64,000 bases of DNA. It comes from Pseudoclavibacter endophyticus (GTDB taxonomy: Bacteria; Actinomycetota; Actinomycetes; Actinomycetales; Microbacteriaceae). Positions 7,353 through 22,513 of the stretch are shown in pieces (position 1 is the first letter of the stretch; every line of letters begins with the position of its first letter). Location of the stretch: contig NZ_WBJY01000001.1 in assembly GCF_008831085.1 (NCBI RefSeq), positions 186,001 to 250,000 of the forward strand. The letters run 5' to 3'. A program made the translations under genes and the position numbers. The notes beneath the pieces were generated by a model that saw only the letters and a program-made list of their open reading frames with translations, searched no databases and was not told the origin of the DNA.

Positions 7353-9154
7353 CCGGCACGTCCGAGGCCGCCTCGCCCGGCACTGCGCCGGGCGAGGCGG
7401 CCTCGCCCGGCGGCCGGGCCCGCCGCGACGCCCGCCTCGGCCGGCTGGGTGTCGCGGGGGCCGCCGCCGCGGTCGTCGCGCTGCTGGTGCTGCCGTTCGG
7501 CGTCAACCCGGTCGCCCTCAGCATCGTCACCCTCGGCCTCGTCTACGGCCTGTTCACCTACGGCCTCGACCTGTCGTGGGGACGCGTGGGTCTCATCAGC
7601 GTCGGCCAGGCGGCGTTCTTCGGCCTCGGCGCGTACGGCGTCGCGATCGCCGAGCGCTTCGGCGTGAGCATCGTGCTCGGGGCGGTGGCCGGCGTGCTGC
7701 TGGCGGCAGGGATCGGTGCGCTCGTCGCGGCGCTGTCGCTGCAGGTGCGCGGTGAGAAGGCCGTTCCCCTCTTCATCCTCTTCACGCTCGCGGTGAGCCA
7801 GCTGCTGACCCGAGCCGCGACGTCGATGCCCGAGACGACGGGCGGGTCGAACGGATCGACCGTCGAGCGCCTGCCGGTTGTGGGTGGCTACTACCTCGTC
7901 GTCGGCGTCGTGGTCGTCGTCGTGCTGCTCACGAACCGCCTGGTGCTGCGCGGGCGGACGGGCGCGGGCCAGATCGCGGTGCTGGCGAACGCGCAGCGGG
8001 CCGAGAGCCTCGGTATCGGCCCGACGCGCGTGCAGGTGCTCGCCTTCACGGTCGCCGCGGCCGTCTCGGCGGTGGCTGGCACGCTGTTCGCCCAGGTTTC
8101 GGGCATCGTCACACCGGCCTCGCTCGGCATCGCGCTTTCGACGAGCGTGCTCGCATGGCTCGCGGTCGGCGGCAAGCGCGGCCTCGCGGGTCCCTTCCTC
8201 GGCGCCCTCGTGCTGACCGTCATCGAGCAGGTCTTCGGCGGCGACCTGCGCAGCCTCTACGTCTTCGGGCTTGCGATCCTGTTCATCGTGGTCGTGTCGG
8301 TCGCGCCCGATGGCGTGGCCGGCATCGTTCGCCGGATGCTGCGCGGCGGCAGTGACATGCCTCGCCTACCGAGGATGCGTGCGGTGCGCCCGCGGGACGG
8401 CGCCACGGGCGACGCGGGCGCGGCGATCGGCGAGCGCGGCGAACGCGGCGCGCCCGGTACGCCAGAGGTGCTCCTCGAAGTCCGGAATATCACCCAGCGG
8501 CTCGGCCGCGCGCGCATCCTCACCGATGTTTCGCTCACCGTGCACCGCGGTGAGATCGTCGCCCTCATCGGGCCGAACGGGGCCGGGAAGTCGACCCTCC
8601 TCGCGGCGATCGCGGGGAGCATCCGTCCCGAGCGCGGCGAGATCGTCATGAACGGGCACGAGATCACGACGCTGCGGCCGGCGCAGCGCGCGAGGCGCGG
8701 CCTCGGGCGGATGTTCCAGGTGCCGAGCGTGTTCGCCGAGCTGAGCGTCGCCGACAACCGCCGCCTCGCCGCGACGATGGCGGGGGAGTCCGGGCCCGAC
8801 TCGAAGCATCCGGGGCACGAGGATGACATCGCGGCCGGCGAGCTCTCGATGGCCGAGCGTCGCAACCTCGAGCTCGACATGGTGCTCGCGGGTCCACCGG
8901 AGCTCGTGCTGCTCGACGAGCCGGCCGCCGGTCTCTCGCACGACGACGCCACCTCGCTCGCGGGGCGTCTGCGTCATACGAGCGCCGAGAGCGGCTGCGC
9001 CATGATCATCGTCGAGCATGACATGGGGCTCGTGCGCGAGGTGGCCGACAGGGTGGTCGTGCTCGCGGAGGGGCGCGTCATCGCGATCGGCACCATGGAC
9101 GAGGTGGCCGAGCACGACGCCGTGCGGCGCGCGTATCTCGGGGGTGACGCATGA
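7346..9154 (+). CDS. LivM-LivG fusion: ABC permease joined to ATP-binding protein
   Basis: 602 residues. Residues about 30-335 are a LivM-like permease with many hydrophobic helices and the GLDLSWGRVGLISVGQAAFF block. Residues about 375-600 are a LivG-like ATPase with Walker A GPNGAGKST (409-417), Q-loop MFQVP, and Walker B VLLDEPAAG (Asp524, Glu525). The signature is LSMAE (500-504), not LSGGQ/LSYGQ, and the helical subdomain is short; LivF supplies the canonical signature. The GTG start overlaps the binding-protein stop. No other in-frame start is seen for many codons, so the 19-bp hairpin at 7363-7405 lies inside the reading frame and encodes the Ala/Ser/Pro/Gly-rich N-terminus. Confidence 0.87.
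   Translation: MLAGTSEAASPGTAPGEAASPGGRARRDARLGRLGVAGAAAAVVALLVLPFGVNPVALSIVTLGLVYGLFTYGLDLSWGRVGLISVGQAAFFGLGAYGVAIAERFGVSIVLGAVAGVLLAAGIGALVAALSLQVRGEKAVPLFILFTLAVSQLLTRAATSMPETTGGSNGSTVERLPVVGGYYLVVGVVVVVVLLTNRLVLRGRTGAGQIAVLANAQRAESLGIGPTRVQVLAFTVAAAVSAVAGTLFAQVSGIVTPASLGIALSTSVLAWLAVGGKRGLAGPFLGALVLTVIEQVFGGDLRSLYVFGLAILFIVVVSVAPDGVAGIVRRMLRGGSDMPRLPRMRAVRPRDGATGDAGAAIGERGERGAPGTPEVLLEVRNITQRLGRARILTDVSLTVHRGEIVALIGPNGAGKSTLLAAIAGSIRPERGEIVMNGHEITTLRPAQRARRGLGRMFQVPSVFAELSVADNRRLAATMAGESGPDSKHPGHEDDIAAGELSMAERRNLELDMVLAGPPELVLLDEPAAGLSHDDATSLAGRLRHTSAESGCAMIIVEHDMGLVREVADRVVVLAEGRVIAIGTMDEVAEHDAVRRAYLGGDA
7363..7405 (+). promoter_or_regulatory. Perfect 19-bp hairpin at the binding-protein/permease junction
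   Basis: Bases 7363-7381 and 7387-7405 are exact reverse complements with a five-base ACTGC loop. The hairpin starts 11 bases after the binding-protein stop codon and falls in codons 6-20 of the fusion gene. No T-run follows. Hairpins at this place in ABC importer operons commonly stabilise the abundant binding-protein mRNA or lower expression of the membrane parts. That role here is inferred. Confidence 0.6.
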
Positions 9155-9846
9155 GGAGCGGGGCCATCTTGCGCGCAACCGGCGTGCGCGCTGCGTATCG
9201 AGGAGTCGACGTGGTCGGCGGCGTCGATCTCGAGGTCAACTCGGGCGAGGTCGTCGGCGTGCTCGGCCGCAACGGCATGGGCAAATCGAGTCTGCTCGGC
9301 GCGATCTTCGGCCTCGTCGACCGGCCGGGAGGCTCGGTCGAGATCGGTGGCACGCGGATCCCGGCTCGCAAGCCGGTCGCGGCGTCGCGGGCAGGCGCGT
9401 CGTTCCTGCCGGAAGACCGCGGCGTGTTCCCGTCGCTGACCGTGGCGGAGAACCTCGCGCTCGCGAAGCGTCGCGGGGCGATGCCGTTCGAGCCGACCGA
9501 GGTCTTTCCCATGCTCGGCGAGCGGGCGCGGCAGGCGGCGGGCAGCCTCTCCGGCGGCCAGAAGCAGCAGCTCGGGGTGGCCCGTACCGTCCTGTCGGCG
9601 ACGAGCCTCCTCGCAATCGACGAGCTCACGCACGGGCTGCAACCGAGCATGGTGGTCGAGACGTTCCGTCTGCTGCGTCGCGTCGCCGACTCGGGGCTCG
9701 GTGTTCTCGTCATCGACCAGAACCCCGAACTGATCACCAGGCACTGCGACCGCGTGCTCGTGATGGAGGGCGGCCGCGTCGCCCTCGAGGCGACGGTTGG
9801 CGACGACACCCTCGACCGCGTTCGAGGAATCTTGGCGCTCGGCTAG
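9151..9846 (+). CDS. LivF-like ABC transporter ATP-binding protein
   Basis: 231 residues, ATG at 9151 overlapping the upstream stop (ATGA). Walker A GRNGMGKSS (39-47), signature LSGGQKQQL (133-141) and Walker B LLAIDEL (Asp157, Glu158). LivF proteins usually have the GRNGxGK variant seen here. It is the last gene of the amidase-transporter operon. Its TAG stop shares the sequence CTAG with the stop codon of the convergent AraC gene. Confidence 0.88.
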   Translation: MRSGAILRATGVRAAYRGVDVVGGVDLEVNSGEVVGVLGRNGMGKSSLLGAIFGLVDRPGGSVEIGGTRIPARKPVAASRAGASFLPEDRGVFPSLTVAENLALAKRRGAMPFEPTEVFPMLGERARQAAGSLSGGQKQQLGVARTVLSATSLLAIDELTHGLQPSMVVETFRLLRRVADSGLGVLVIDQNPELITRHCDRVLVMEGGRVALEATVGDDTLDRVRGILALG

Positions 9847-10811
9847 CTCGTCTCGTCACCGGCCCAGCGCTGCTCGCGACGCCACCGAGCCGGCGTCGTG
9901 CCCTCGACTGCGCGGAACTGTCGGCTGAGCTGCGTTGCGTCGGCGATACCCCAGCGCGCACCGATCGCCGCGACCGGTGCAGCGCCGGTGGCCGGGGAAC
10001 ACAGATCCGCCTTGATGCGGTCGATACGGCGGCGCCGGATCGTCTGGGCGACCGTGGAATCGTTCGCCTCGAACAGACGGTGGAGGTAGCGGACAGAGAT
10101 GAAGTGCTCGGCTGCGATGCGCCCCGGCGACAGGTCTGGCTCGGCGAGGTGCTCGTCGATCCAGCGGAGCAGCCGGGCGAGCATGCCATCGTCGTTCGAG
10201 GGAGAAGCGGCGTGGTGATCGATACCAGCGAGGCCGTCGATCGACTCGCGCAACAGGTTCACGATGAGGTCGCCGAGCCGCGCACGCGAGCCGTGCCGCA
10301 GCCCGCCCGCGCGGGCGGGGAGTGAGCCGAGCAATTCGGTCGCGATGTGTGCGGCGGGCATTGTGGAGATTTCGGGGCTCGCGCCGCACAGTTGGTCGTC
10401 ATCGCCGGACGCACCGATCGCATCGCGCGGGACCTCGGCGACGATGTAGCGGTACGCGGAGTCGAAACGCAGTTCGAACGGCACGCCGCTCGGGTAGAGC
10501 GAAAGCGAGCCCGGCCGGAGCGCCAGCGACTGGGTCGCCGTCTGCAGGTGCCCGGTGCCCCGCGTCAGCACGCCGACGAGCATGGTTGAGGCGGGCTCCT
10601 TGAGGAAGCCGAGATGTCGCGAGACGATCGCCGAATCTGGGTCGTCGATCGCCGACATGCGCACGGGTCCGAGGCCCCACGAGCCCATCTCGGCCTCGTA
10701 GTGAGACCGGTGCACGACCACGGCGTCCATCGCGTGCGTGGTCGCGCGGGGCGCGCCAGGGCGCAAGTAGCCGCTCACGATCGTTCGACCGCGCTCCGTC
10801 GTCACGTGCAT
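9843..10811 (-). CDS. AraC family transcriptional regulator
   Basis: 322 residues. The ATG at 10811 is preceded by GGGGAGGTGA with good spacing, so it is preferred over the ATG at 10832. The C-terminal 100 residues form the AraC double helix-turn-helix (FISVRYLHRLFE, then SQLSRQFR-like region and a TPARWRR end). The N-terminal part resembles the AraC-binding-2 type sensor domain. It is convergent with the amidase-transporter operon, sharing four bases at the stops, and is a plausible activator of that operon. Confidence 0.85.
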   Translation of the reverse strand: MHVTTERGRTIVSGYLRPGAPRATTHAMDAVVVHRSHYEAEMGSWGLGPVRMSAIDDPDSAIVSRHLGFLKEPASTMLVGVLTRGTGHLQTATQSLALRPGSLSLYPSGVPFELRFDSAYRYIVAEVPRDAIGASGDDDQLCGASPEISTMPAAHIATELLGSLPARAGGLRHGSRARLGDLIVNLLRESIDGLAGIDHHAASPSNDDGMLARLLRWIDEHLAEPDLSPGRIAAEHFISVRYLHRLFEANDSTVAQTIRRRRIDRIKADLCSPATGAAPVAAIGARWGIADATQLSRQFRAVEGTTPARWRREQRWAGDETS

Positions 10812-10942
10812 CCGCTCACCTCCCCGAACCATGCGGGTGACGGGATGCTACTCCGTCCCCGGCCGCGCCAACAGCGCTCGGCGCGGATCGCGACGAGTGA
10901 GGAACACGCGGCGCTCGCCTGAGAGGGTCATGGAGACGAGCG

Positions 10943-11605
10943 TCACGGTCGTCCCACCGAGTCCCCGAGCGCCGCGACGAAATCGCCGAAGCGGTCGCCC
11001 TGCACCGACACGTGCTCCTCGATGAGCTGCTCGGCGGACGCCGAATCGCCCGCGCGGATCGCTTCGACGATGGCCCCGTGCTCGGTCGTCGAGCTGCGCA
11101 TGCGCCCCGGAACGCGCAGCTGCAGCCGGCGGAACGGCCTGAGCCGCAGCAGCAGGCTCTGGGCCGTCCGCGCAAGGAACGCGTTGCCGCTGGCCTCATA
11201 GATCGCAAGGTGAAACTGCTCGTTGGCGTAGTAGTACGCATCGGCGTCACCCGATTCGCTGTTGGCGGCGCACGTCTCGCAGGCGGCTTCGATCTCGCGA
11301 AGCTGCGCGTCCGACCGTCGTCGCGCGGCGAGGCGCGCGCACATGCCCTCGAGCTCCGACATGACCTCGAACATGTTGAGCATGTCGCGCACCGAGAAGT
11401 CCTTGACGAAGGTCCCGCGGTGCGGCTGCGCCTCGACGAGTTCCGTCGCGATGAGCTGGCGCAGCGCCTCGCGAATCGGCGTGCGCGACACCTCGAACTG
11501 GGCTGCGAGCTTCACCTCGTCGAGGCGCTCACCGGGCCTGAACGCGCCGGTCACGATGGCCTGCTCGATGTGGTCGCGGATCTCGCCCGCCCGGCTCTGC
11601 TTCAT
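10943..11605 (-). CDS. GntR/FCD family transcriptional regulator, MatR-like by context
   Basis: 220 residues from the ATG at 11605. Residues 1-70 are a winged helix with the GntR block LAAQFEVSRTPIREALRQL. The rest is an FCD effector domain with the metal-site histidines in NEQFHLAIYEASGN, EHGAIVEAIRAGD and IEEHVSVQ. FCD regulators sense small carboxylates. It follows the matA-matB-UGSC-trxR operon on the same strand by 87 bases. Rhizobial mat operons are also controlled by an FCD-type GntR (MatR), so control of this locus is likely. A matching operator is seen at 16952-16963. Confidence 0.85.
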   Translation of the reverse strand: MKQSRAGEIRDHIEQAIVTGAFRPGERLDEVKLAAQFEVSRTPIREALRQLIATELVEAQPHRGTFVKDFSVRDMLNMFEVMSELEGMCARLAARRRSDAQLREIEAACETCAANSESGDADAYYYANEQFHLAIYEASGNAFLARTAQSLLLRLRPFRRLQLRVPGRMRSSTTEHGAIVEAIRAGDSASAEQLIEEHVSVQGDRFGDFVAALGDSVGRP

Positions 11606-11691: not shown

Positions 11692-12684
11692 TCACCGGGG
11701 TGCGCGAAGGAACTCGAGCGCCGAGGCGGCCGCCGACTCACCGTCGGTTGCAGACTCGGCGAGCATCGCCGCCGTGCCGCTTCGCACGTCACCCGCCGCA
11801 AAGGCCCCCTGTCTGGAGGTCTGGAGACCGGCATCCACGACGACGCGGCCGTCGCGGTCGAGGTCGACCAGCCCGGCGATGGGCCGCGAATTCGGCTGCA
11901 ACCCGATGTAGACGAACAGGCCGTCCGCGGCCTGGTCGACCTCCTGGCCCGTGTCGTGGCGCGAAATCGTCACCGACTCCACCCGTTCGGTCCCGCGCAC
12001 CGCCGTCACGGTGGCGTTCGGGAGCTCGCGCGCATTCGGTCGCGCGCGGAGGTTCTCGACGGCCGTCGCCCTCGCCGTCGGCTCCGGACCGGTGTGCACG
12101 ACGAGGACGTCAGCCGCATGCTCGGCGAGCACGAGGGCCTCGTCGTAGGCCGAGTCGCCGCCTCCGACGACGACCACACGCCTCTCCCGGAAGAACGGGC
12201 CGTCGCAGGATGCGCAGTGCGAGATCCCGCGCCCCTCGAGCTCAGCCTCGCCCACGAGTCCGAGGGCGCGGCGCGTCGAGCCCGTCGCGATGACGATGGC
12301 GCGTGCCCCGAGCGAGCGAGCGGCCGCGCGGACGACAAACCCGCCGCCGTTCACGACCGCCTCGTCGATCGCGGCGGGCCCCGCCGCTTCGATCGCCTCG
12401 ACCTCGTCGAGCGCGACCTCTGCCCCGGCACTCTCGGCCACCTCGAGCAGCTCCACGCCGAGGTCATAGCCAGCGATCGGCTCGTCGAAGCCGGGCGCAT
12501 TGGCAACGTTCTCGACCGTGCTGACCTGGCCGCCGACCCCAAGCCGGTCGAGGAGCAGGGTGCGCGCTCCACCGCGCGCGGTGGCGGCCGCGGCCGTCAG
12601 CCCCGCCACCCCCGCCCCGACCACGATCACATCGAAGACCTCGTCCGGTCCACCGGCGCCGCTCGCGCCGCCCTCCCCGCTCAT
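11692..12684 (-). CDS. Thioredoxin-reductase-like FAD/NAD(P)H disulfide oxidoreductase
   Basis: 330 residues. FAD site VVGAGVAGLTAAA near residue 21, redox motif CASC (Cys157, Cys160) inside HCASCDGPFF, NADPH site VVVGGGDSAYDEA (about 171-183), and a C-terminal GAFAAGDVR FAD block. This is the TrxB architecture. The ATG at 12684 overlaps the stop of the UGSC-like gene by four bases (ATGA), so the two are translationally coupled. A GTG at 12690 is the alternative start. No thioredoxin gene lies in the operon, so the partner may be the CxxC of the UGSC-like protein itself; this is inference. It need not be the cell's housekeeping TrxB. Confidence 0.85.
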   Translation of the reverse strand: MSGEGGASGAGGPDEVFDVIVVGAGVAGLTAAAATARGGARTLLLDRLGVGGQVSTVENVANAPGFDEPIAGYDLGVELLEVAESAGAEVALDEVEAIEAAGPAAIDEAVVNGGGFVVRAAARSLGARAIVIATGSTRRALGLVGEAELEGRGISHCASCDGPFFRERRVVVVGGGDSAYDEALVLAEHAADVLVVHTGPEPTARATAVENLRARPNARELPNATVTAVRGTERVESVTISRHDTGQEVDQAADGLFVYIGLQPNSRPIAGLVDLDRDGRVVVDAGLQTSRQGAFAAGDVRSGTAAMLAESATDGESAAASALEFLRAPR

Positions 12685-14381
12685 CGCCACTCGTCGATCG
12701 AGACCGTCGCGCTGCGGCGGGCGCCCATGATCTGCCAGTAGCCGTTGGTCTCGCCGCCCACCACCACGACATTGATGGTCTCGGGTGCGAACATCCGCAG
12801 GTCCTCACCGGGCGGGGTGGCGAGTCGGCTCGCGAACGGCTCTTCGCCGAACGTCGCGCGCGGGTACACGTAGTTCTGGATCACCTGCAGATCCCAGTAC
12901 CGGTCTGCGCGCATCGTCGCCGTCTCGTGAACCCACTGAATGAGGTCAGCCTTGTTCACGAATCCACCCCGGTCGATGAACTGGCGCGCCACGATCGGGT
13001 CGAGCAGCAGCACGGGCGCCGTCACGGCGTCGGTGCCGCGCAGCATGTCGCCGACGTGCTCGCGCCAGTGCTCCTTGCGCAGGCCGAGGCCGAACGTGGT
13101 CGAGCGATTGCCGAAGAAGATCGTCGCCGCGCTCTCATCGGTCGCGAACCCGTGCTGCACATGCAGCGGTTCCCACGGACTGCGTTCTTCGTTCTCGGCG
13201 AAGGTCAGCCCGTTGTAGGTGTAGTTGTTGCCGAGCGAGCCCATGAACGTCTCGCCCGGGACCGACCCTCCCTGCAGGTTCTGCGACAGCAGGCTGTAGG
13301 CGCGGCCGATCGTGGCGTTCGCGTGATTGTAAGGTCCGAGGGCGCCGACGCCGCTGTTCATACGGACCTCGTCGCGGAACGGCCCGTTCACGACCGTCAT
13401 CGCGGCTCCCGAGCTTGAGGTGCTGCCGCGCGCGGTCTGCCCGCTCGACGCGAGCGCGAGGATCGCCGGGAGATAGGCGGGCTTCGCGCCGGCCATGACG
13501 GCGTTCACGGCGACCTTCTCGACCGTGAAACTCCACGCACCGCGGTTCGCGGTTGGCTGCAGCCGACCGACCACCTCGTCGGGGTCGTGACTCGTCGCGG
13601 CGAGCATCTCGCGCACCCGCCGCTTGGTCGGCAGCACGATCGGAAGCTGGTCGGTCCAGTGCTTCTCGGCGAACTGCTCGTAGAGGCGATCGGCGCTCGC
13701 GGGAGCGACGAAGCGCTTTTCCGACACGTCGGGAGCGGGAGCTTTCGCGGGTGCCGGCGCCCGCGTGAGCGCCTCGGTGATCGCGCGCATGACGGGCGTG
13801 TCCGTGGTCGGGTCGGCCCCGTCGACATAGTCGCGCAGCTCCTGGGGGCTCTTGCCCATGACGGGCTGCGGCACGAAGACCTGGGGGAGCTCGGGTAGGC
13901 CGCCCATGCGGGCGACCGACGTGACGACGCGCTTGAATGTGTCGGTGTGCACGGCGACCGTCGGGATGCCGTACTTCGTTTCGAGGGTGATCGCGTGCGT
14001 CGCGACTGCAGGCGCACAGGTGCTGCAGTGGCCGACGCCGAGAATCGCCGCGTCGCCGTCCGCCCTCACGCGCTCCCACAGCGCCGGGTCGTCCTTCGCA
14101 TACGTCGAGGCGAGTTGCTCGATGCGGGTCGTCACGCTCGGCATGTGCTCGGCGAACCACGCTTCGATCTGCTTCAGGAGCTCGATCGAGTCGTCGAAGC
14201 GGCTGTCGATGAGATACACGGTGCGGTCGGCGAGGTCGTCGAGCCGAGTGGCCGGCGTCTTCGCCGTGACGACGGGCGGGAACCCCGTCGGGTCGTGCAC
14301 CTCGAGCAGGTCGTCGTGCTCACCGCCGTCGCGATCGTTCACAGACGCTGCCGACGTCATCGTCGGGTCCGAGCTCGTCAT
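12681..14381 (-). CDS. Two-domain UGSC-like redox protein (Cys form), function unknown
   Basis: 566 residues, no signal peptide, ATG at 14381 with AAGGAG upstream. The N-terminal domain (about 45-205) has AILGVGHCSTCAPAV followed by KYGIPTVAVHTDTF. This resembles the UGSC family, where a Sec-Gly-Ser-Cys motif sits in the same place; here it is Cys119-Ser-Thr-Cys122. After an Ala/Pro linker (205-225), the C-terminal domain starts with DQLPIVLPTKRRVREML and VEKVAVNAVMAGAKPAYLP, a block I recall from uncharacterised proteins found with UGSC genes. The stop overlaps the TrxB-like start and the start overlaps the matB stop, both as ATGA. A reductase or lyase acting on a substrate linked to malonate is possible; no activity is claimed. 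Confidence 0.6.
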   Translation of the reverse strand: MTSSDPTMTSAASVNDRDGGEHDDLLEVHDPTGFPPVVTAKTPATRLDDLADRTVYLIDSRFDDSIELLKQIEAWFAEHMPSVTTRIEQLASTYAKDDPALWERVRADGDAAILGVGHCSTCAPAVATHAITLETKYGIPTVAVHTDTFKRVVTSVARMGGLPELPQVFVPQPVMGKSPQELRDYVDGADPTTDTPVMRAITEALTRAPAPAKAPAPDVSEKRFVAPASADRLYEQFAEKHWTDQLPIVLPTKRRVREMLAATSHDPDEVVGRLQPTANRGAWSFTVEKVAVNAVMAGAKPAYLPAILALASSGQTARGSTSSSGAAMTVVNGPFRDEVRMNSGVGALGPYNHANATIGRAYSLLSQNLQGGSVPGETFMGSLGNNYTYNGLTFAENEERSPWEPLHVQHGFATDESAATIFFGNRSTTFGLGLRKEHWREHVGDMLRGTDAVTAPVLLLDPIVARQFIDRGGFVNKADLIQWVHETATMRADRYWDLQVIQNYVYPRATFGEEPFASRLATPPGEDLRMFAPETINVVVVGGETNGYWQIMGARRSATVSIDEWR

Positions 14382-15928
14382 CGTGTGTACTCCTTTCTTG
14401 TCGAAGCCGCGGGGCCGGGCTCCGTCATCGTTCCGTCGTCGCTCGAGTAGCGGGTCCGGAGTTCGTTCTTCTGCACCTTGCCCATGACGTTTCGCGGCAG
14501 CGCCGGCAGCACGACGTAATCATGCGGGCGCTTATAGCGGGCGAGGTGTTCCGCCAGATGAGCGTCGAGGTCGTCCGCGGTCGGCGCGGTGGGGGAGGCC
14601 GGAACGATCGCGGCGATCACGCGCTCGCCGAGATCGGCGTCGGGCACGCCGAACACGGCGCTTTCGCCGACGCCGTCGACGGCGTCGAGCACGAGCTCGA
14701 CCTCTTTCGGATACACGTTGTACCCGCCCGTGATCACGAGGTCCTTCTCACGGCCGACGATCTCGACGTAGCCATCGGCGTCGATGCGACCGAGGTCGCC
14801 CGTGATGAAGAATCCGTCGTCGGTGAATTCGGCGGCGCTTCGCTCGGGCAGGCCCCAGTAGCCGACGAAGACGTTGGGCCCGCGCACCTGGATGCTGCCG
14901 ATGCCCTGCGCATTCGGTTCGGCGAGTCGCAGTTCGACGCCGGGCAGGGGACGGCCGACCGTGCCGGGGCGGCGCTCGCCATCGATCGGATTCGACGTGA
15001 GCATCGTCGTTTCCGTCATGCCGTAGCGCTCGAGGATCGCGTGTCCGGTGCGCGCCGCCCAGGCGCGGTGCGTCTCGGCGAGCAGCGGTGCCGAGCCTGA
15101 GACGAACAGCCGGATGCTCGACGCGCGTTCGCGCAGGTCCGGCACCTCGAGCAGTCGCGAATAGTACGTTGGCACGCCCATGAGTACCGTGGCCCGCCGC
15201 AGTGCGTCGGCGAGCGACGCGACCTCGAAGCGCGGCAGCAGCAGCACGGTCGCGCGGGCGAGGAACGAGACGTTGATGCCGACGAACAATCCGTGGGTGT
15301 GGAAGACGGGCAGGGCGTGCACGAGCGTGTCGTCGCACGAGAATCGCCATTGGGCCCGCAGCGTTTCGGCGTTGGCGGCGAGGTTGCCGTGCGTCAGCAT
15401 GGCCCCCTTCGACCGCCCCGTCGTGCCGGAGGTGTAGAGGATCGCGGCGAGGTCGTCTCGCCCTCGCGGCACCACTGGGCGCGCGGTCGCTCGCGCGGCC
15501 GCCTCGGCGAGCGTGCCGGCCCCGTCGGCGTCGGCCGTGAGCATCGTCGCGTCCGCGCGTTCGCAGGCTGCGGCGAGTTCGTCGGCGCGTGCCGGCGCAC
15601 AGAGCACCACGGCCGGCTGCGCGTCGCTGATGAAGTACGCGAGCTCTGTGGTCGTGTACGAGGGGTTGATCGGCACGAACACGGCCCCGGCCCGCAGGGT
15701 CGCCAGGTACGCCGCGATGGCGTGGACGCTCTTGGCGAGCACGGCGACGACGCGGTCGCCGGGCTGCGTGCCCACCGCCTCGAGCGCCGCGGCGTAGCCC
15801 GCCGCGAGCTCGTCGAGCTCGTCGTACCGTACTCGCCGGCCGTCGGGCAGCTCGATGGCGACGCGACCCGCGTCGTCGCCCGATGCCATGAGCGCGATGA
15901 AGAGGTTCTCGTTCATCCCCGCGCTCAT
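14378..15928 (-). CDS. matB: Malonyl-CoA synthetase (AMP-forming)
   Basis: 516 residues of the ANL acyl-CoA synthetase fold. The AMP-binding P-loop YTSGTTGRSKG is at 165-175. FHTHGLFVG (209-217), VLMGVPTYYSRLL and ERYGMTET with TSNPIDGERRPGTVG follow closely the malonyl-CoA synthetase subgroup (MatB/ACSF3). The hinge and C-terminal Lys region (PRNVMGKVQKNELR) are present. It converts malonate, CoA and ATP to malonyl-CoA. The ATG at 15928 overlaps the matA stop (ATGA), and its own stop overlaps the UGSC-like start. Substrates such as methylmalonate are also possible for this family. Confidence 0.85.
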   Translation of the reverse strand: MSAGMNENLFIALMASGDDAGRVAIELPDGRRVRYDELDELAAGYAAALEAVGTQPGDRVVAVLAKSVHAIAAYLATLRAGAVFVPINPSYTTTELAYFISDAQPAVVLCAPARADELAAACERADATMLTADADGAGTLAEAAARATARPVVPRGRDDLAAILYTSGTTGRSKGAMLTHGNLAANAETLRAQWRFSCDDTLVHALPVFHTHGLFVGINVSFLARATVLLLPRFEVASLADALRRATVLMGVPTYYSRLLEVPDLRERASSIRLFVSGSAPLLAETHRAWAARTGHAILERYGMTETTMLTSNPIDGERRPGTVGRPLPGVELRLAEPNAQGIGSIQVRGPNVFVGYWGLPERSAAEFTDDGFFITGDLGRIDADGYVEIVGREKDLVITGGYNVYPKEVELVLDAVDGVGESAVFGVPDADLGERVIAAIVPASPTAPTADDLDAHLAEHLARYKRPHDYVVLPALPRNVMGKVQKNELRTRYSSDDGTMTEPGPAASTRKEYTR

Positions 15929-16914
15929 CGCGCGGCCTGCCCGTCGTAGCGGTAGCTCACCATGACGCCGAATGACCGTTCGAAGGCCACCGCCGAGGAA
16001 TCGGCGCCCGGGAGCACGCGATCCAGGCGAGCGCCATTGCGGAGGTGGAAACGAGCAACGGGGTCGCAAGGGGCGTCACCGTGGCGGACCGCGTCGGCGA
16101 CGAATCGTTCGACGACGTCGTTCAGGAGCGCGGGGGGCGGGCGCTTCCCGGCGGCGAGCGCGTCCTGCGTCAGGGCGGGAGGCGAGGCGTCTCCCTGCTC
16201 CGCGGCGGCATGGGCCAGCCAGGCCCGCAGCGCGGGGGCCGGGGAGAGCGTCACGGTGTGACGGATGGAGGGCAGCGTCGCGGAGACTCGCCCAAGGGCC
16301 CCGGCGAGCATCGTGCGCCCGAGGCCGAGTCCCCGGAGTCCCGCGTGGCAGGTCGAGATCGAGTAGAAGACCGCGATCGTGGCCTCGGCTGGGTCGATCG
16401 GCACGCGGTCGGTCGCGAGCAGCTCGCCGATCGACGCAGACGGGCGGGCCGTGAGGGCGATCGACGTGAACGCGACGGGCTCGTCCGGCAGTGCTGGATG
16501 GAACAGGCCGTAGACGAGCCGGTCGGCAGGGTTCAGGCGACGGAGGAGTTCGGCGTCGTCGGCGATCGGGTGCACGGCCTCGTGTCCCACGAGCCAGTCG
16601 AGGAGGGAGTCTGAGTCAGCCGCGGTGATCTGGCGCACGTCAAGGCGCCGGGGCGCGAACTCGTCGGCGAGGGCGGCCCGCAGTCGCGTTTCGGTGCTCG
16701 GCAACGTGGCGTCACCCAGCCCCCGGCTGGTCGTATCTGGAACCCTGCTCGGCTCGCCGTTGCGGGTGCCCGCGGCGGGACCGGCGAGGAGCGCGGCACG
16801 CTGCCCGGCGAGGCTCAGCGGGTCGCGAACACCGCGGGCGTGGCCGGCGGCGGCCGGTGTGGCGTTACGTGCTGTGTCGCCATGCGCCAGCGGCCGAATC
16901 GGGTGTGTCGTCAT
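15925..16914 (-). CDS. matA: Malonyl-CoA decarboxylase, short form
   Basis: 329 residues from the ATG at 16914 (GAGGGGG six bases upstream). It has the catalytic-domain blocks of malonyl-CoA decarboxylase: VFYSISTCHAGLRGLGLG, HTVTLSPAPALRAWL, and DPVARFHLRNGARLDR with the likely catalytic His290, ending FGVMVSYRYD. It would turn malonyl-CoA into acetyl-CoA. Family members are commonly near 450 residues; here residues 1-75 are Ala/Pro/Arg-rich and the N-terminal all-helical domain appears reduced or lost. First gene of the minus-strand malonate operon, divergent from tctC. Confidence 0.82.
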   Translation of the reverse strand: MTTHPIRPLAHGDTARNATPAAAGHARGVRDPLSLAGQRAALLAGPAAGTRNGEPSRVPDTTSRGLGDATLPSTETRLRAALADEFAPRRLDVRQITAADSDSLLDWLVGHEAVHPIADDAELLRRLNPADRLVYGLFHPALPDEPVAFTSIALTARPSASIGELLATDRVPIDPAEATIAVFYSISTCHAGLRGLGLGRTMLAGALGRVSATLPSIRHTVTLSPAPALRAWLAHAAAEQGDASPPALTQDALAAGKRPPPALLNDVVERFVADAVRHGDAPCDPVARFHLRNGARLDRVLPGADSSAVAFERSFGVMVSYRYDGQAAR

Positions 16915-16932
16915 TGATGCCCCCTCAATTAA

Positions 16933-16963
16933 TGTATAGCACCACCCATAGATTGTATGCAAT
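16933..16963 (-). promoter_or_regulatory. matA promoter with overlapping GntR-type operator
   Basis: On the minus strand TTGCAT (16957-16962) is 18 bases from TATACA (16933-16938), a good sigma-A promoter about 20 bases before the matA ribosome site. ATTGTATGCAAT at 16952-16963 is a 10/12 palindrome close to the ATTGTATACAAT-type sites bound by many GntR regulators. It covers the -35 element and sits between matA and tctC. The regulator encoded at 10943-11605 is the natural candidate to bind here. Confidence 0.5.
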
Positions 16964-17048
16964 ACTGCCGATGTTGCATGGCGTGAACGACGACGTTCGC
17001 GCCGGAACTGCGAATAACCGACGTTTCACTTCACGAGGGGCGACGACG

Positions 17049-18161
17049 ATGTCACCGAAACGCAGAGGACTCCTGGCCACCGCCGTGGCCGCCACGACAC
17101 TGCTGGCGATCACCGGCTGCGGGGTCACCAATCAGCAGGGAGGTGGCGGAGACGGCGGCGGTGCCTACTACGAGGGCGAACGCATCACGATGATCGTTCC
17201 CTTCGATGCCGGAGGCGCATCCGACACCTTCAGCCGCATGCTGGCGGGCTACCTGTCGCAGTATCTCGAGGGCAACCCAGAGGTCGTCGTCGAGAACGTG
17301 CCGGGTGGCGGCCAGAAGGAGGGCCTCAACCGGTTCGAACGCGCCAGCCACGACGACGGCCTCACCCTCGCGATGGGTTCAGGCGGCATCCTCGTCTCGA
17401 GCCTGATCGACACCGAGGGCGTGGAGTTCGATCCCGAAGGCTTCGAGACGGTCGCCGCGTTCGGAGGTGGCATGTCGATCTTCGGCAGCGTCGAGGCCGG
17501 TGTGACCTCCCTCGACGACCTCGTCACGGGGCCCGGCCCGTTCTTTTACGGTGGCATGGAGCTCAACGCGTCGGAGGCCGTGCGCGTCTTCGCCCTCGAG
17601 CAGCTCGGTATCGCCGGCTTCACGCCGCTCATGGGCTATGACGGTGGCGGGTCGGTCACCGCGGCGGTGCTGCGCGGTGAGCTGAGCATGGGCAACGTCA
17701 CCTCGTCGCACTACCTCAACAACGTGCTCCCGCTCGAAGAAGACGGTGATGTGACGCCCCTCATGACGCAGGGGTACGTCGTCGGCGACGAGGTGCAGCG
17801 CGACCCGGCGTTCCCGGATCTGCCGACCATGCCTGAGGCCTACGAGATGGTCACCGGTGAAACTGCCGCCGGGATGGGGTGGGACATCTACCGCGCCGTG
17901 ACCACGGCGCAGACCAATCTGCTGCGCAACTACTGGGTCCACGGCGACGCGCCGCAGGAGGCGAAGGACGCCCTGCACGCCGCGATGGCTCAGGTGGTCG
18001 TCGACGAGGGTTTCCTCGAGGAGGCCGGGCAGCTGCTCGGCGAGGAGCCTCCTGTGCAGCTCGGAGAGGAGGCGGAGGCGTCGCTCGTTGCGGCACGCAA
18101 CCTCACGCCCGAGCAGGTGCAGTGGATCAGCGACTACATCGACGAGGTCTCGTCGCGATGA
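17049..18161 (+). CDS. tctC: Tripartite tricarboxylate transporter binding lipoprotein
   Basis: 370 residues. Start ATG at 17049 with AGGGG eight bases before. The signal peptide ends in the lipobox ITGC (Cys24), followed by a Gly-rich linker. The mature protein has the TctC opening ITMIVPFDAGGASDTFSRML and VVVENVPGGGQKEGLNRF. TctC captures carboxylates outside the cell for the TctA/TctB permease. Its position divergent from matA makes malonate or a related dicarboxylate the likely ligand, replacing the MatC carrier of rhizobial mat operons. Confidence 0.88.
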   Translation: MSPKRRGLLATAVAATTLLAITGCGVTNQQGGGGDGGGAYYEGERITMIVPFDAGGASDTFSRMLAGYLSQYLEGNPEVVVENVPGGGQKEGLNRFERASHDDGLTLAMGSGGILVSSLIDTEGVEFDPEGFETVAAFGGGMSIFGSVEAGVTSLDDLVTGPGPFFYGGMELNASEAVRVFALEQLGIAGFTPLMGYDGGGSVTAAVLRGELSMGNVTSSHYLNNVLPLEEDGDVTPLMTQGYVVGDEVQRDPAFPDLPTMPEAYEMVTGETAAGMGWDIYRAVTTAQTNLLRNYWVHGDAPQEAKDALHAAMAQVVVDEGFLEEAGQLLGEEPPVQLGEEAEASLVAARNLTPEQVQWISDYIDEVSSR

Positions 18162-18217: not shown

Positions 18218-19768
18218 ATGCTCGAATCGGCGCTCGAAGCGCTGCAGATGATCTTGAGCCCCGAGCACCTCATCTGGCTCGTGGTCGGCGTGGTGCTCGG
18301 GCTCATCCTGGGGCTCATCCCCGGGCTCGGTGGCATTACCGGCATGGCCGTCCTTTTGCCGCTCATCGTGGGGATGCCGCCGGCGAGCGGGATCGGCATG
18401 CTCATAGGGCTCAACGCGGCCACGACGATCGGCGACACGTTCCCCTCCGTGCTCATGGGTGTGCCCGGCACGGCTGCGTCGCAGGCCACCGTCGTCGACG
18501 GTTACCCGATGGCACGCAAGGGGCTCGGCAATGTGGCTCTCGGGGCGGCGTTCACCGCCAACATGATCGGCGGCATCATCGGAGCGGTCGCGCTCTTTCT
18601 GCTCATCCCGCTCGCGCGCCCCCTCATCGTCGGGATCGGCTCGCCGCAGCTGTTCATGATGGCGCTGCTGGGCATGTCCCTCATCGTGGTCATCACGAGG
18701 GGGCCAATCGCCCCGTCGCTCATCTCGGCGTTCCTCGGCATGCTGCTCGCGACGATCGGCAGTGCGGGCATGACTGGCGACTACCGCTTCGTCGGCGAGA
18801 TCGTTTACCTGTTCGACGGCATCGATCTCGCGGTGCTCGCGATCGGCTTCTTCGCGCTGCCGTCGGTGCTGTCGCTGCTCGTTCGCGGAACGGCGGTCGC
18901 CGAGCACATGCCCTACTCGAGGGGCGGTGTGCTGCGGGGCGCTCGCGAGGTCGTGGTTCGTCACAAACGGCTCGTCGTCGGCAACAGTCTCCTCGGCACG
19001 CTGCTCGGCATCGTTCCGGGCATCGGCGGCAGCGTCATCGACTGGCTCGCCTACGGGGCGACGAAGCGCCTCGTGCGCACGGATCGCGACAACTTCGGCA
19101 AGGGCGACATCCGTGGCGTCATCGCGCCGGAGGCCGCGAACAATGCGAAGGACGGCGGCGTGCTCGTGCCCACCTTCATGTTCGGCATCCCCGGCAGCGC
19201 GACCGCCGCGATCCTGCTCGGCGGGCTCGCGACGATGGGCGTCGCGACGGGTCCGACCATGCTGCGGCCCGAAAACCTCTATCTCATCTTCATGTTCGTG
19301 TGGACGCTCGCCCTCGCCAATGCCCTCGGCGCCATCGGCAGCGCGGCACTCGCCGGCCCGCTGAGCAAGCTCACCAGGCTCAAGCCCTACAGCTATGCGC
19401 CGTTCCTCATCGTCATCATGCTGCTCGCCGCGTATCAGTCGGGGGTCCACTGGGGCGACATCGTCCTGGTCGTCATCATCGCGCTCCTCTCGTGGGGCAT
19501 GCAGGTCATCAAGTGGCCGCGGCCGCCGCTCATCATCGGCTTCGTGCTCGGCCAGGGCGCCGAGAACTACCTCTGGATCTCGGTCAGCCGCTACGAGTGG
19601 TCGTGGCTCGCGCAACCGGCGACGATCGTGCTCGGCGTGCTGGTGATAGCGACGCTCGCTGCGGGGTTCGCCGGGTCGACCGGTGGCTTCCAGCGGCTCG
19701 TGCGGCGGGCAGCGGGCCGGTTCCTGCCGTCGAAGGCCGCCACGACGCGAGACCGAGAGGGGGCGTGA
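18218..19768 (+). CDS. tctA: Tripartite tricarboxylate transporter large permease
   Basis: 516 residues with about eleven to twelve hydrophobic helices. The TctA signature regions are visible: GLILGLIPGLGGITGMAVLLP near residue 27, and TTIGDTFPSVLMGVPGTAASQAT. It forms the transport channel of the secondary carboxylate system. It follows tctC by 56 bases and precedes tctB by four. The order C-A-B differs from the common C-B-A. Confidence 0.9.
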   Translation: MLESALEALQMILSPEHLIWLVVGVVLGLILGLIPGLGGITGMAVLLPLIVGMPPASGIGMLIGLNAATTIGDTFPSVLMGVPGTAASQATVVDGYPMARKGLGNVALGAAFTANMIGGIIGAVALFLLIPLARPLIVGIGSPQLFMMALLGMSLIVVITRGPIAPSLISAFLGMLLATIGSAGMTGDYRFVGEIVYLFDGIDLAVLAIGFFALPSVLSLLVRGTAVAEHMPYSRGGVLRGAREVVVRHKRLVVGNSLLGTLLGIVPGIGGSVIDWLAYGATKRLVRTDRDNFGKGDIRGVIAPEAANNAKDGGVLVPTFMFGIPGSATAAILLGGLATMGVATGPTMLRPENLYLIFMFVWTLALANALGAIGSAALAGPLSKLTRLKPYSYAPFLIVIMLLAAYQSGVHWGDIVLVVIIALLSWGMQVIKWPRPPLIIGFVLGQGAENYLWISVSRYEWSWLAQPATIVLGVLVIATLAAGFAGSTGGFQRLVRRAAGRFLPSKAATTRDREGA

Positions 19769-19772
19769 TCCG

Positions 19773-20282
19773 ATGAGTCTCAGCATTGCGAGAGTCGCCG
19801 CGACGGCGGTCGTGTTCCTCGTGTTCGTCGGAGCGGCGATCATCTCGCTGGGTTCGATCGAGCGCCCGACCTACTGGTTCCCCGCCTTCGTCGCGGTAGC
19901 CGGCGCGCTGTCGTCGGCATACGCGCTCGGCGTCGATCTTCGGAAGGTGCTGACGGGCAGGTCGGCCGTCGATGACGAGGTGACCGACCTCGGCGCATCC
20001 ATCGCCGATGTCGCGGACAGCGACGACGCCGGCGAGCGGTCCGCCGTGCGCCGCCGCGTGCTCGTCTGGATCGCGTGGTTCGTCGCGCTGCCGGCTGTCA
20101 GCCTCGTCGTGCCGTTCTTCTATGCCTCACTCGTGTGGCTGTTCTGCGTGCTGCGATTCTCGGGAAAACGCAGTTGGGTGTTCTGCATCGTCTCCGTGAT
20201 CGTGTTCGGTGTCGTCGTCAACGGGCTCATCGTGCTCCTGCAGATCCGCGTTCCCCCGGCCCTGCTGACTGGCTGGGGATAG
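19773..20282 (+). CDS. tctB: Tripartite tricarboxylate transporter small membrane subunit
   Basis: 169 residues from the ATG at 19773. Four hydrophobic helices: residues about 5-27, 33-50, 98-128 and 140-163, with an acidic cytoplasmic loop between the second and third. The size, topology and position directly after tctA identify it as TctB, a poorly conserved subunit. It ends 60 bases before the convergent MshA-MshB fusion gene. Confidence 0.82.
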   Translation: MSLSIARVAATAVVFLVFVGAAIISLGSIERPTYWFPAFVAVAGALSSAYALGVDLRKVLTGRSAVDDEVTDLGASIADVADSDDAGERSAVRRRVLVWIAWFVALPAVSLVVPFFYASLVWLFCVLRFSGKRSWVFCIVSVIVFGVVVNGLIVLLQIRVPPALLTGWG

Positions 20283-20344: not shown

Positions 20345-22420
20345 CTACGACACGCGCTGCAGGCAGATGCTCGTCGTGAGCGGGTCGAACTGTCCGCCGA
20401 CGTGCACGACGTCGGGACCGGCGATGGTGAGTTGTGTGCCGTAGGCGGCGAGCGCGCGGCGCACCTGATCCTCGAACTCGGGCAGGTGCAGCCAGCGGTG
20501 CGCGCCGTACGGGGCCGGCGAGACGCGGTCCGGAGGGGTCGGTGTCGCCGCGAGTCCCGTCGTCACGATCTCGACCGCGGCGATGCCGGCGCGGTCGGCG
20601 GCGACGCGAGTGGCCGTGTGCAGACGAACATGGTCGGGATGGCCGTAGCCGCCGTCGCGGTCATAGACGACCACCACGTCCGGGCGCGTCGCGGTGAGGT
20701 GGGCCTCGATATCGCCCGAAAGCTCGCCGATCGACGCCTTCGCGATCGAGTCGGGGGCGGGATCCGGCACCGGGCCGGCGACGCCGTCGCTCACCCAGAT
20801 CATGCCCGAGTCCGCGTATCGGCGCGGCTCGAGCCCGTCCGCGCGCGCCGAGCCCTCGCCCAGCCAGGTGCGCGTCGAGATCCCGAGCGCGTCGCAGGCT
20901 GCGTCGAGCTCACGTTCGCGGGCGGCCGCCACGGCGTCGGCGTGCGCCCCGGGCTCGTGCGACTCGAGCGCGTCGCTCGCCTCGGCGCGCACTTGGCCCT
21001 GTTCGCCGCGGGATGCGGTCAGGAGATCCACAGCGACGCCGCGCGAGGCGAGCCAGGCGGCGAGCGGCCCCGTCGTGAGGGTCTCGTCGTCGGGATGCGC
21101 GTGCACGAGGAGCACGCGCCGGGCGTCGCCGAAGATGGCCGCGTGGTCGCGCTCGCGCGTCTCGCGCTCGATCGCCAGCCGAGGAGCATCCGGCCCATCG
21201 GCGCCCTTGGCCTCGGCGATGAGATCGGCCGGCGACCGCCCCGCCACGAGCCCGGCGTAGAAATCGAGGTGCGCCTCCGCAGCGCGCCCCCAGCTCTGCG
21301 TCTCGGCCCACGCCCGTGCCGACCGGCCGAGCGCGGTGCGGGCCTCGTGATCGGCCAGAAGACTCGAGACGACCTCGCGCCAGCGGCTCGGCACGCGTCC
21401 CGGCACGATGACGCCACTCACGCCGCAGACGGTCGCCTCGTGCAGTCCGCCGGAGGGAGCCGAGACCGTCGGAACGCCGCACGCGGCGGCCTCGAGCGCG
21501 ACGAGCCCGAAGGTCTCGCTGTAGCTCGGAACGAGCACGAGGCTCGCGCACTGCATGAGCGGTACGAAGTCATCGCGCTCGAGCCCGCCGACGCGCTCGA
21601 CGCGGTCGGCGATACCGTGACGATCGATGAGCTCGTTGAGCGATTCGTCGTACTCGGTGAAGTCTTTCGCGGCGTCGCCGACGATGCGCAGGTGGGGCGA
21701 CGGCGATGCCGCATCGGCCGAGAACCCCGCGATCGCCTCGACGGCCAGGTCGGCCGCCTTGAGCGGCTGCAGCCTGGCTGCGAACAGCACGTAGGGCGAC
21801 TGCTCCGCGCACTTCGACCGCTCGTCGGGCCGGAACATTTCGAGATCGACGCCCGGCCGGATCACGCGGATCTTTGCCGGGTCGGCGCCGATTCGCTCGA
21901 CCGTGTGCGCCTCAGCGATGCTGACGGTCACGATCGCGTTGGCCTCGCGGGCCGCGCGCGCCTCGCCCGGCACACGCCCCGGCGACTCCGGAGGCTCGCC
22001 CTCGCCGAGCTGCTCCCCCTTGCGTGCGGCGACCGAGTGGTAGCTCACGACATGGGGCACGCCCCACTCGCGCGCGAGCTCGAGCCCCGCCATGGCGCTC
22101 ATCCAGTGGTGCGAGTGCACGAGGTCAGGCGCGGGCTCACCTCGCAGCGCTTCCGTGTACTCGCCGATCCACTCGTCGATCGAGCTTTTCGGCAGCACCT
22201 CGGCCGGCCCCGCGTCGATCTGGTGCAGCGAGAGCCCGGGTACCACGGTGGTGACGGTGGGTGCGAGCGGGTCCATGCGCCGTACATACACGTGGACGTC
22301 GTGGCCGCGCGCCGCGAACTCGCTCGTGAGGTTGCGCAGCACGACGTTCATGCCACCCGCGTCGGCCGACCCGAGTCGTGCCCACGGCGACGTGTGCATG
22401 CAGAGAATCGCGAGACGCAT
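20345..22420 (-). CDS. mshA-mshB: MshA-MshB fusion: mycothiol glycosyltransferase plus deacetylase
   Basis: 691 residues. Residues 1-395 are a GT4 glycosyltransferase with the MshA block GSADAGGMN (17-25), VHSHHWMSA and the EX7E motif in SETFGLVALE (301-310). Residues 433-691 are a PIG-L/LmbE zinc deacetylase with HAHPDDE (440-446; His442, Asp445) and YDRDGGYGHPDHV (His593, His596), as in MshB. MshA joins GlcNAc to inositol 3-phosphate and MshB deacetylates GlcNAc-inositol, the first and third steps of mycothiol synthesis. They are normally separate genes. The reading frame is continuous with a linker near 396-432. Start ATG 22420 chosen over 22444 because the ribosome site lies between them. 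Confidence 0.85.
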   Translation of the reverse strand: MRLAILCMHTSPWARLGSADAGGMNVVLRNLTSEFAARGHDVHVYVRRMDPLAPTVTTVVPGLSLHQIDAGPAEVLPKSSIDEWIGEYTEALRGEPAPDLVHSHHWMSAMAGLELAREWGVPHVVSYHSVAARKGEQLGEGEPPESPGRVPGEARAAREANAIVTVSIAEAHTVERIGADPAKIRVIRPGVDLEMFRPDERSKCAEQSPYVLFAARLQPLKAADLAVEAIAGFSADAASPSPHLRIVGDAAKDFTEYDESLNELIDRHGIADRVERVGGLERDDFVPLMQCASLVLVPSYSETFGLVALEAAACGVPTVSAPSGGLHEATVCGVSGVIVPGRVPSRWREVVSSLLADHEARTALGRSARAWAETQSWGRAAEAHLDFYAGLVAGRSPADLIAEAKGADGPDAPRLAIERETRERDHAAIFGDARRVLLVHAHPDDETLTTGPLAAWLASRGVAVDLLTASRGEQGQVRAEASDALESHEPGAHADAVAAARERELDAACDALGISTRTWLGEGSARADGLEPRRYADSGMIWVSDGVAGPVPDPAPDSIAKASIGELSGDIEAHLTATRPDVVVVYDRDGGYGHPDHVRLHTATRVAADRAGIAAVEIVTTGLAATPTPPDRVSPAPYGAHRWLHLPEFEDQVRRALAAYGTQLTIAGPDVVHVGGQFDPLTTSICLQRVS

Positions 22421-22513
22421 TTGCCCACCCTTCGTGGCGATCATTGGGCACCAGCCTAGAGAGCCGCCGGTGCCCCGCCGTACGTAGGCGTGCCGAGCCG
22501 TCGCGTGCGGGGC

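Follow-up and report, generated by a model that had tools for sequence, protein, structure and literature searches.

A UGSC–CDOM fusion gene lies within a malonate operon

We analysed a 64,000-nucleotide stretch of Pseudoclavibacter endophyticus (contig NZ_WBJY01000001.1, positions 186,001 to 250,000; hereafter the window), in which an operon on the minus strand combines the malonate genes matA and matB with genes for a two-domain protein and for a flavoprotein resembling thioredoxin reductase (TrxB). The two-domain protein, referred to here as the fusion, consists of a UGSC domain followed by a second part, CDOM. Coordinates are those of the window, and handles beginning with L and G denote loci and genomes. 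Read from 16914 down to 11692, the genes are ordered MatA, MatB, fusion and TrxB-like:

15925–16914, minus strand: MatA, malonyl-CoA decarboxylase (Pfam MCD and solved malonyl-CoA decarboxylases)
15925–15928, minus strand: ATGA overlap of MatA and MatB
14378–15928, minus strand: MatB, malonyl-CoA synthetase (NF005702 and solved malonyl-CoA synthetases)
14378–14381, minus strand: ATGA overlap of MatB and the fusion
12681–14381, minus strand: UGSC–CDOM fusion, 566 amino acids (open reading frame, Pfam UGSC match, structure model with pLDDT 90)
13818–14303, minus strand: UGSC domain, residues 27–188 (Pfam PF24696)
14016–14027, minus strand: Cys119-Ser-Thr-Cys122, predicted active site (invariance, and a TGA at the Cys119 position in L062)
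12681–13718, minus strand: CDOM, residues about 222–566 (345 amino acids), predicted substrate-binding half (familyless; a separate gene beside UGSC in split systems)
12681–12684, minus strand: ATGA overlap of the fusion and TrxB
11692–12684, minus strand: TrxB-like flavoprotein, 330 amino acids (TIGR01292 score, alignment to solved thioredoxin reductases)
12205–12216, minus strand: CxxC (CASC) of the TrxB-like protein

The preliminary description of this DNA had joined the four genes through three successive ATGA overlaps, and both the coordinates and the junction letters agree. Four-base overlaps are a common feature of bacterial operons and are therefore weak evidence by themselves; the recurring gene order, described below, says more. 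A GTGA at 11695–11692 would also couple TrxB to the following GntR/FCD gene if that regulator started there, while the favoured start of the regulator is the ATG at 11605.

Both malonate enzymes were identified with scores above their thresholds. MatB reached 690.1 bits against a cut-off of 558 for the curated subfamily NF005702, and its closest solved relatives are malonyl-CoA synthetases. MatA reached 179.7 bits against a gathering score of 23.2 (Pfam MCD, PF05292) and aligned with solved malonyl-CoA decarboxylases. It is short, with 329 amino acids in the window (15925–16914) and about 318 in L018 (7482–8438). Against one solved decarboxylase it aligns only from residue 101 to position 183 of that enzyme, so it seems to lack the usual N-terminal domain.

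The UGSC domain resembles the active-site region of GrdB and PrdB

The UGSC domain of the fusion scored 90.4 bits against a Pfam gathering score of 25 (PF24696), and 62 bits against 125, the equivalog cut-off of NF041046 (UGSC family (seleno)protein), which it thus does not reach. Selenoproteins of these two families share the domain with the fusion, which has CSTC instead of UGSC. This Cys119-Ser-Thr-Cys122 motif, reported in the preliminary description, is present and invariant in 13 of 13 close fusions, and either CxxC or UxxC occurs in all 48 rows of the UGSC alignment (U written as C). A more distant full-length fusion from a Ramlibacter genome (G456) has an in-frame TGA exactly at the Cys119 position, with a TrxB-like gene directly upstream and a SelA-like gene, named by eye, nearby. 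The sequence after this TGA folded no better than its shuffles (z −0.30) when searched for a bacterial SECIS hairpin, so selenocysteine (Sec) is assigned here from where the TGA lies, from a frame that is open on either side of it and from the SelA-like gene. A selA profile had no match in the genome of the window (97.8% complete), which fits its three Cys-type UGSC genes.

We next compared UGSC with GrdB and GrdF (glycine/sarcosine reductase) and PrdB (D-proline reductase). In a relaxed NCBIfam scan, four of six UGSC domains weakly matched GrdB, GrdF or PrdB over the UxxC (E 0.003–0.037), while Pfam GRDB (PF07355) had no match in the genome of the window (G000) and none for UGSC domains at E 10. 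We then assembled 22 GrdB/PrdB-like proteins from actinobacterial genomes (11 GrdB-like and 11 PrdB-like, all with TGA at the motif). Using hhalign, a UGSC profile of 48 sequences aligned with all 22 at a probability of 95% (P 3.6e-8, score 61.5, 69 columns), with the 11 PrdB-like proteins at 90% and with the 11 GrdB-like proteins at 85%, the aligned span of 45–69 columns covering the UxxC region. Controls reached 2.5% (TrxB), 0.9% (GrdE-type), 0.6% (fumarase) and 0.3–0.4% (CDOM), and the highest score among 200 column-shuffled UGSC alignments was 20.8, compared with 61.5 for the real one. The profile–profile match backs the parallel to glycine and proline reductases drawn in the preliminary description. 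By this comparison UGSC is a distant relative of GrdB/PrdB in the active-site region, and the fusion probably adds a new relative to the glycine and proline reductases.

Full-length Sec-type GRDB genes are themselves present in Actinomycetota (G191, G159, G223, G156, G162, G280, G196, G292, G245 and G148), with a Gly_reductase (GrdE-type) match in 10 of 10 searched. A thioredoxin fold, guessed for UGSC in 2008, was also considered and set aside: the 50 VIA rows listed were Rossmann-like, receiver, B12-binding-like and similar folds, with no thioredoxin among them, although such a list does not exclude a relation.

CDOM is a constant partner of UGSC

A second domain of about 340 residues had been noted in the fusion, and we found it at residues about 222–566. 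At E 10, CDOM had no match among Pfam and NCBIfam families (four proteins). Its association with UGSC is regular. When 396 genomes of the phylum were searched with Pfam UGSC, 29 matched, 27 of them over the cut-off. Of the 47 UGSC places listed, 45 are over the cut-off and 34 contain one in-frame TGA; 30 were examined as loci, 28 of these over the cut-off. CDOM adjoins UGSC in all 28 examined over-cut-off actinobacterial loci (of 45 such places), and by profiles the two loci under the cut-off (L053 and L054) contain neither UGSC nor CDOM. Among 34 longer loci selected from the matches, 33 contain both domains; in L109 the contig starts inside a CDOM gene. In split systems, CDOM is a separate gene beside UGSC.

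Fourteen CDOM columns are invariant in 36 sequences; the invariant residues are polar or small and none is Cys, suggesting that thiol chemistry should sit on UGSC. When the CDOM model was compared with known structures, the top Foldseek rows were class I fumarases (E 4.0e-4, a weak resemblance), with cyclic amide hydrolases lower. Profile comparison showed no relation to fumarases (hhalign 0.1% against six fumarases), and CDOM lacks an invariant Cys for an iron-sulfur cluster, which the Cys of class I fumarases serve. A relation to GrdE was not seen either (hhalign 0.2%, P 0.25, with a GrdE-type profile from nine actinobacterial proteins).

Several other arrangements of the pair were observed. 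The genome of the window has two more UGSC–CDOM pairs (CGSC) within 8 kb in L056 (G000:C1:1172001-1192000; 9078–10732 and 15376–17015), where a CDOM gene follows each UGSC; neighbours named by eye include CoA ligase-like genes, an acyl-CoA dehydrogenase, a short-chain dehydrogenase/reductase (SDR) and two ABC binding proteins. A distinct form in L101, L103, L104, L107 and L113 combines a single Sec-type UGSC with two unlike CDOM genes, one after the other, with a TRAP transporter permease nearby in L103 and L107. In L098, L100, L107, L112 and L184, Sec-type UGSC–CDOM lies beside selD-, selA- and selB-like genes (by eye; selB is annotated in L184).

Fusion and split systems are associated with thioredoxin genes

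A scan of one species-genome collection, with a reach limited to close relatives, retrieved 12 fusion relatives with 65–74% identity over nearly the whole length, from Actinomycetota, Alphaproteobacteria and Betaproteobacteria. The fusion is also found on five Neorhizobium plasmid records, and viral contigs contained no relative. Among 60 genomes searched with the fusion protein of the window, its own genome is the sole carrier; in the class of G452 (385 genomes), a full-length match is confined to G452 itself, and 38 genomes have some match (at most three candidates per genome were scored). The fusion gene thus looks rare, and its patchy distribution would fit horizontal transfer. On plasmids of Sporomusa termitida (L177) and Vibrio europaeus (L186), a full- or near-full-length fusion relative has aconitase X and DUF126 genes close by.

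A link between the UGSC-like protein and the thioredoxin system, another element of the preliminary description, gained support from these loci. Of 14 fusions, 10 have a TrxB-like gene within 3 kb, namely those of 8 of the 12 genome loci, the window and the Ramlibacter Sec form; in these 8 genome loci the gene follows the fusion with a gap of 0–90 bases (stop to first aligned base). Among 20 split loci, nine have a CxxC-bearing N-terminal extension of CDOM, five have a TrxB-like neighbour and none has both. This mutual exclusion gave Fisher p values of 0.002 (34 loci) and 0.04 (split loci), which are optimistic as several loci are close relatives. The extension was not recognised as thioredoxin: three whole proteins matched nothing in the scan, and one extension scanned alone gave glutaredoxin- and thioredoxin-like matches only at E 0.06–0.3.

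Plasmid records provided further cases. Twenty-four had a match, and of the 15 examined a TrxB-like gene is near in eight and absent in seven. Among the eight, the gene order is UGSC–CDOM–flavoprotein on a plasmid of the archaeon Haloterrigena, CDOM–UGSC–trxB in Roseovarius and trxB–trxA–CDOM–UGSC, with a Pfam thioredoxin, in Arthrobacter. TrxB is over the curated cut-off in Roseovarius and Arthrobacter, and under it in Haloterrigena, Variovorax boronicumulans and Microbacterium album. In the window, the CxxC and the FAD/NAD domains of the TrxB-like protein align to solved TrxB, in keeping with a thioredoxin reductase fold and active site. A second, housekeeping TrxB over the cut-off (378.5 bits) is encoded elsewhere in the genome, so the operon copy is an extra one.

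On the Arthrobacter sp. ERGS1:01 plasmid (L179, 3972–9812), genes for a ComA-type phosphosulfolactate synthase and a CocE/NonD hydrolase precede trxB–trxA–CDOM–UGSC, which may hint at what this copy acts on. Sulfonates as the substrate, an idea taken from this synthase-type neighbour, gained no support: no such gene was seen in the other annotated loci, most of which are only partly annotated.

The malonate link is narrower

In 4 of the 12 genome loci the fusion has matA and matB as direct neighbours, upstream in L009, L014 and L018 and downstream in L019 (5 of 13 including the window), and in three Neorhizobium plasmids (three examined of five). The order MatA–MatB–fusion–TrxB–GntR recurs in L009, L014, L018 and the same three plasmids, and a GntR/FCD homologue occupies the same place in L009, L014, L018 and L020. 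Neorhizobium galegae HAMBI 1141 has the cassette in full. The cassette occurs with two unrelated transporters: Tct in the window and Microbacterium album, and an ABC importer in Neorhizobium as well as, judged from sequence clusters, in Chelativorans. The corresponding features of the window are:

17049–18161, plus strand: TctC-like binding protein, divergent from the operon (position before TctA; 28% match adjacent to the TctA homologue of L015)
18218–19768, plus strand: TctA permease (Pfam TctA, 343.5 bits)
19767–20282, plus strand: TctB-like subunit (Pfam TctB, 24.1 bits, below the cut-off of 29.1)
10943–11605, minus strand: GntR/FCD regulator (Pfam GntR and FCD)

The TctC-like protein has no Pfam match. 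The top NCBIfam match of the GntR protein is a phosphonate-use regulator, far below the cut-off (143.7 against 271.5 bits).

Malonyl-CoA decarboxylase was found in 10 of 11 fusion genomes searched (none in G844; the genome of L016 was outside the set), compared with 63 of 190 sampled genomes of G452's class, a background not matched for genome size. As three of the 11 (those of L011, L013 and L018) belong to other classes, we repeated the comparison within the class alone: 7 of 8 fusion genomes have the decarboxylase (one-sided p 0.003, G452 removed from the background), and with adjoining cases removed the proportion is 4 of 5 against 62 of 189 (one-sided p 0.047). The decarboxylase is encoded elsewhere in six of the seven searched fusion genomes without adjoining matAB.

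The earlier interpretation is supported in part, and the single malonate pathway of four proteins stays a proposal, with a statistical excess of the decarboxylase in fusion genomes on one side and matAB adjoining only 4 of 12 genome loci on the other. The preliminary description had itself counted wide occurrence with unrelated neighbours against that pathway, and some of this is seen: besides the limited matAB association, 4 of 12 loci are without both partners. The malonate link is narrower than the thioredoxin and CDOM links.

A proposed thioredoxin-fed reductase and its alternatives

We propose, with confidence slightly short of even, that the fusion is a thioredoxin-fed thiol reductase whose product, malonate, is converted to acetyl-CoA via MatB and MatA. 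What we infer here is the catalysis and the direction in which it runs, the product, and the roles of transporter and regulator. The fusion would be the single-chain form of a two-part thiol/selenol reductase. In its UGSC half, Cys119 (replaced by Sec in many relatives) would be the nucleophile and Cys122 the resolving residue, and this half would share ancestry with the Sec-bearing region of GrdB/PrdB, whereas CDOM would bind and activate an organic acid. Cys119 would attack the acid held by CDOM, a group would leave by reductive cleavage, and Cys122 would resolve the intermediate with formation of a disulfide, which the TrxB-like flavoprotein, perhaps via thioredoxin, would re-reduce. The product, malonate or a close analogue, would be converted by MatB to malonyl-CoA and by MatA to acetyl-CoA, with Tct importing the acid and the GntR protein sensing it. 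Our guess for the substrate is a substituted malonate (tartronate, aminomalonate or halomalonate). In excerpts of a review (PMC10298544), glycine reductase is described as using a Sec nucleophile and a dithiol, with formation of a selenenylsulfide.

Several observations weigh against this proposal. According to the same excerpts, D-proline reductase depends on NADH and does not draw on thioredoxin (PMC10298544). Homology appears not to extend to the other half of the analogy with glycine reductase, CDOM being unrelated to GrdE by profile. The relaxed NCBIfam scan gave no GrdB, GrdF or PrdB match for the UGSC domain of the window or for one other; among the four domains that did match, one scored better against the unrelated geranylgeranyl reductase family (E 0.0005). 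Neither a TrxB-like gene nor matAB lies beside the fusion in L010, L011, L013 and L017, and 6 of the 20 split loci have neither a TrxB-like gene nor a CxxC extension. The TrxB-like protein of the window scored 257.8 bits, under the TIGR01292 cut-off of 343.45, and is without the HRR stretch present in the aligned solved reductases, so its electron donor may not be NADPH. The unmatched background of the decarboxylase comparison belongs here as well.

Other readings share some of this evidence. It is unlikely, in our estimate, that the fusion is a GrdB/PrdB-like reductase whose product is not malonate and beside which matAB stands by chance or for some loose benefit. The presence of matAB beside a minority of fusions would suit such a reading, as would the commonness of malonate genes in the sampled genomes; speaking against it are the recurrence of the five-gene cassette, with either of two unrelated transporters, in both Actinomycetota and Alphaproteobacteria, and the decarboxylase encoded elsewhere in most searched genomes that lack adjoining matAB. 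We give a little less credence to CDOM as the catalyst, a lyase or hydrolase making malonate from a larger carboxylate, with the CxxC of UGSC keeping it active, carrying an acyl group or acting as a redox switch. The Foldseek ranking of fumarases and cyclic amide hydrolases is consistent with this, as are the polar or small, Cys-free invariant residues of CDOM. Least probable of the three is a role off the pathway, in which UGSC–CDOM would serve thiol protection or peroxide/disulfide repair and be co-expressed with malonate use. TrxB and thioredoxin partners would be expected of such a protein, and passages of a 2008 survey label UGSC a redox protein (PMC2398784), but the profile match of UGSC is to substrate reductases, and the neighbours in annotated loci (transporters, CoA ligases or CoA-transferases, and acyl-CoA enzymes) fit catabolism. 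Isothiazolinone degradation via malonamic acid was also considered and dropped; the system described in PMC13274388 is a glutathione transferase.

Beyond the window, and more tentatively than the proposed reductase itself, UGSC–CDOM may represent a widespread class of thioredoxin-fed selenol/thiol reductases that occurs in both bacteria and haloarchaea and forms a sister line to the glycine and proline reductases, its substrate subunit being new. In that case the window would contain the single-chain Cys form of the class, one that forms malonate by removing the alpha substituent of a substituted malonate and so feeds malonyl-CoA to central metabolism.

Other genes in the window

A single 699-residue open reading frame (20345–22444, minus strand) combines a GT4-type glycosyltransferase with a PIG-L deacetylase and looks like MshA fused to an MshB-type enzyme, presumably for mycothiol synthesis. 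Three overlapping genes (6195–9846, plus strand) encode a branched-chain-amino-acid/urea-type ABC importer in which permease and ATPase are fused (7346–9154); an AraC-type regulator (9843–10832) lies beside them.

Relation to known systems

GrdB/GrdF and PrdB share with UGSC the profile of the UxxC region and a Sec or Cys nucleophile, and their systems, like the fusion, include a second protein part, with dithiol electron supply described for glycine reductase in the excerpts cited above (PMC10298544). They differ in that their partner is GrdE-type, unlike CDOM, whereas the fusion is one chain, and UGSC–CDOM, unlike these systems, is found in Micrococcales, rhizobia and haloarchaea. A precedent for such a reductase is a GrdB/GrdE-like pair that has been proposed for fluoroacetate cleavage (farACEB), according to sections of PMC10838667. 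As in the window, a GrdB-like protein is encoded there in a catabolic operon with a transporter and a substituted acid; in contrast to the window, that system comes from an anaerobe, has true GrdB/GrdE-type proteins and other accessory genes, and its fluoroacetate role is a proposal. The malonate operon of MatA/MatB type resembles that of the window in its adjacent matA and matB, GntR-type regulator and transporter; the window version is extended by the fusion and TrxB-like genes, and its MatA aligns partially.

UGSC proteins, and a UGSC fusion to a domain named Unknown_1, were reported in 2008 (excerpts of PMC2398784); Unknown_1 may or may not be the same domain as CDOM. Parts of a 2026 review count the UGSC family among those largely uncharacterised (PMC13188914). 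In the open-licence PMC literature we found surveys of UGSC, no function for it and no relation to GrdB/PrdB, and a search on malonate with trxB and on substituted malonates returned nothing relevant.

The fixed CDOM partner, the thioredoxin genes and the GrdB/PrdB-like active-site region would turn a 'redox protein of unknown function' into an enzyme class that can be tested. A selenium-free form of it is available in the malonate operon, in culturable strains and with a guessable product, and may thus be a direct route to the first substrate of the class.

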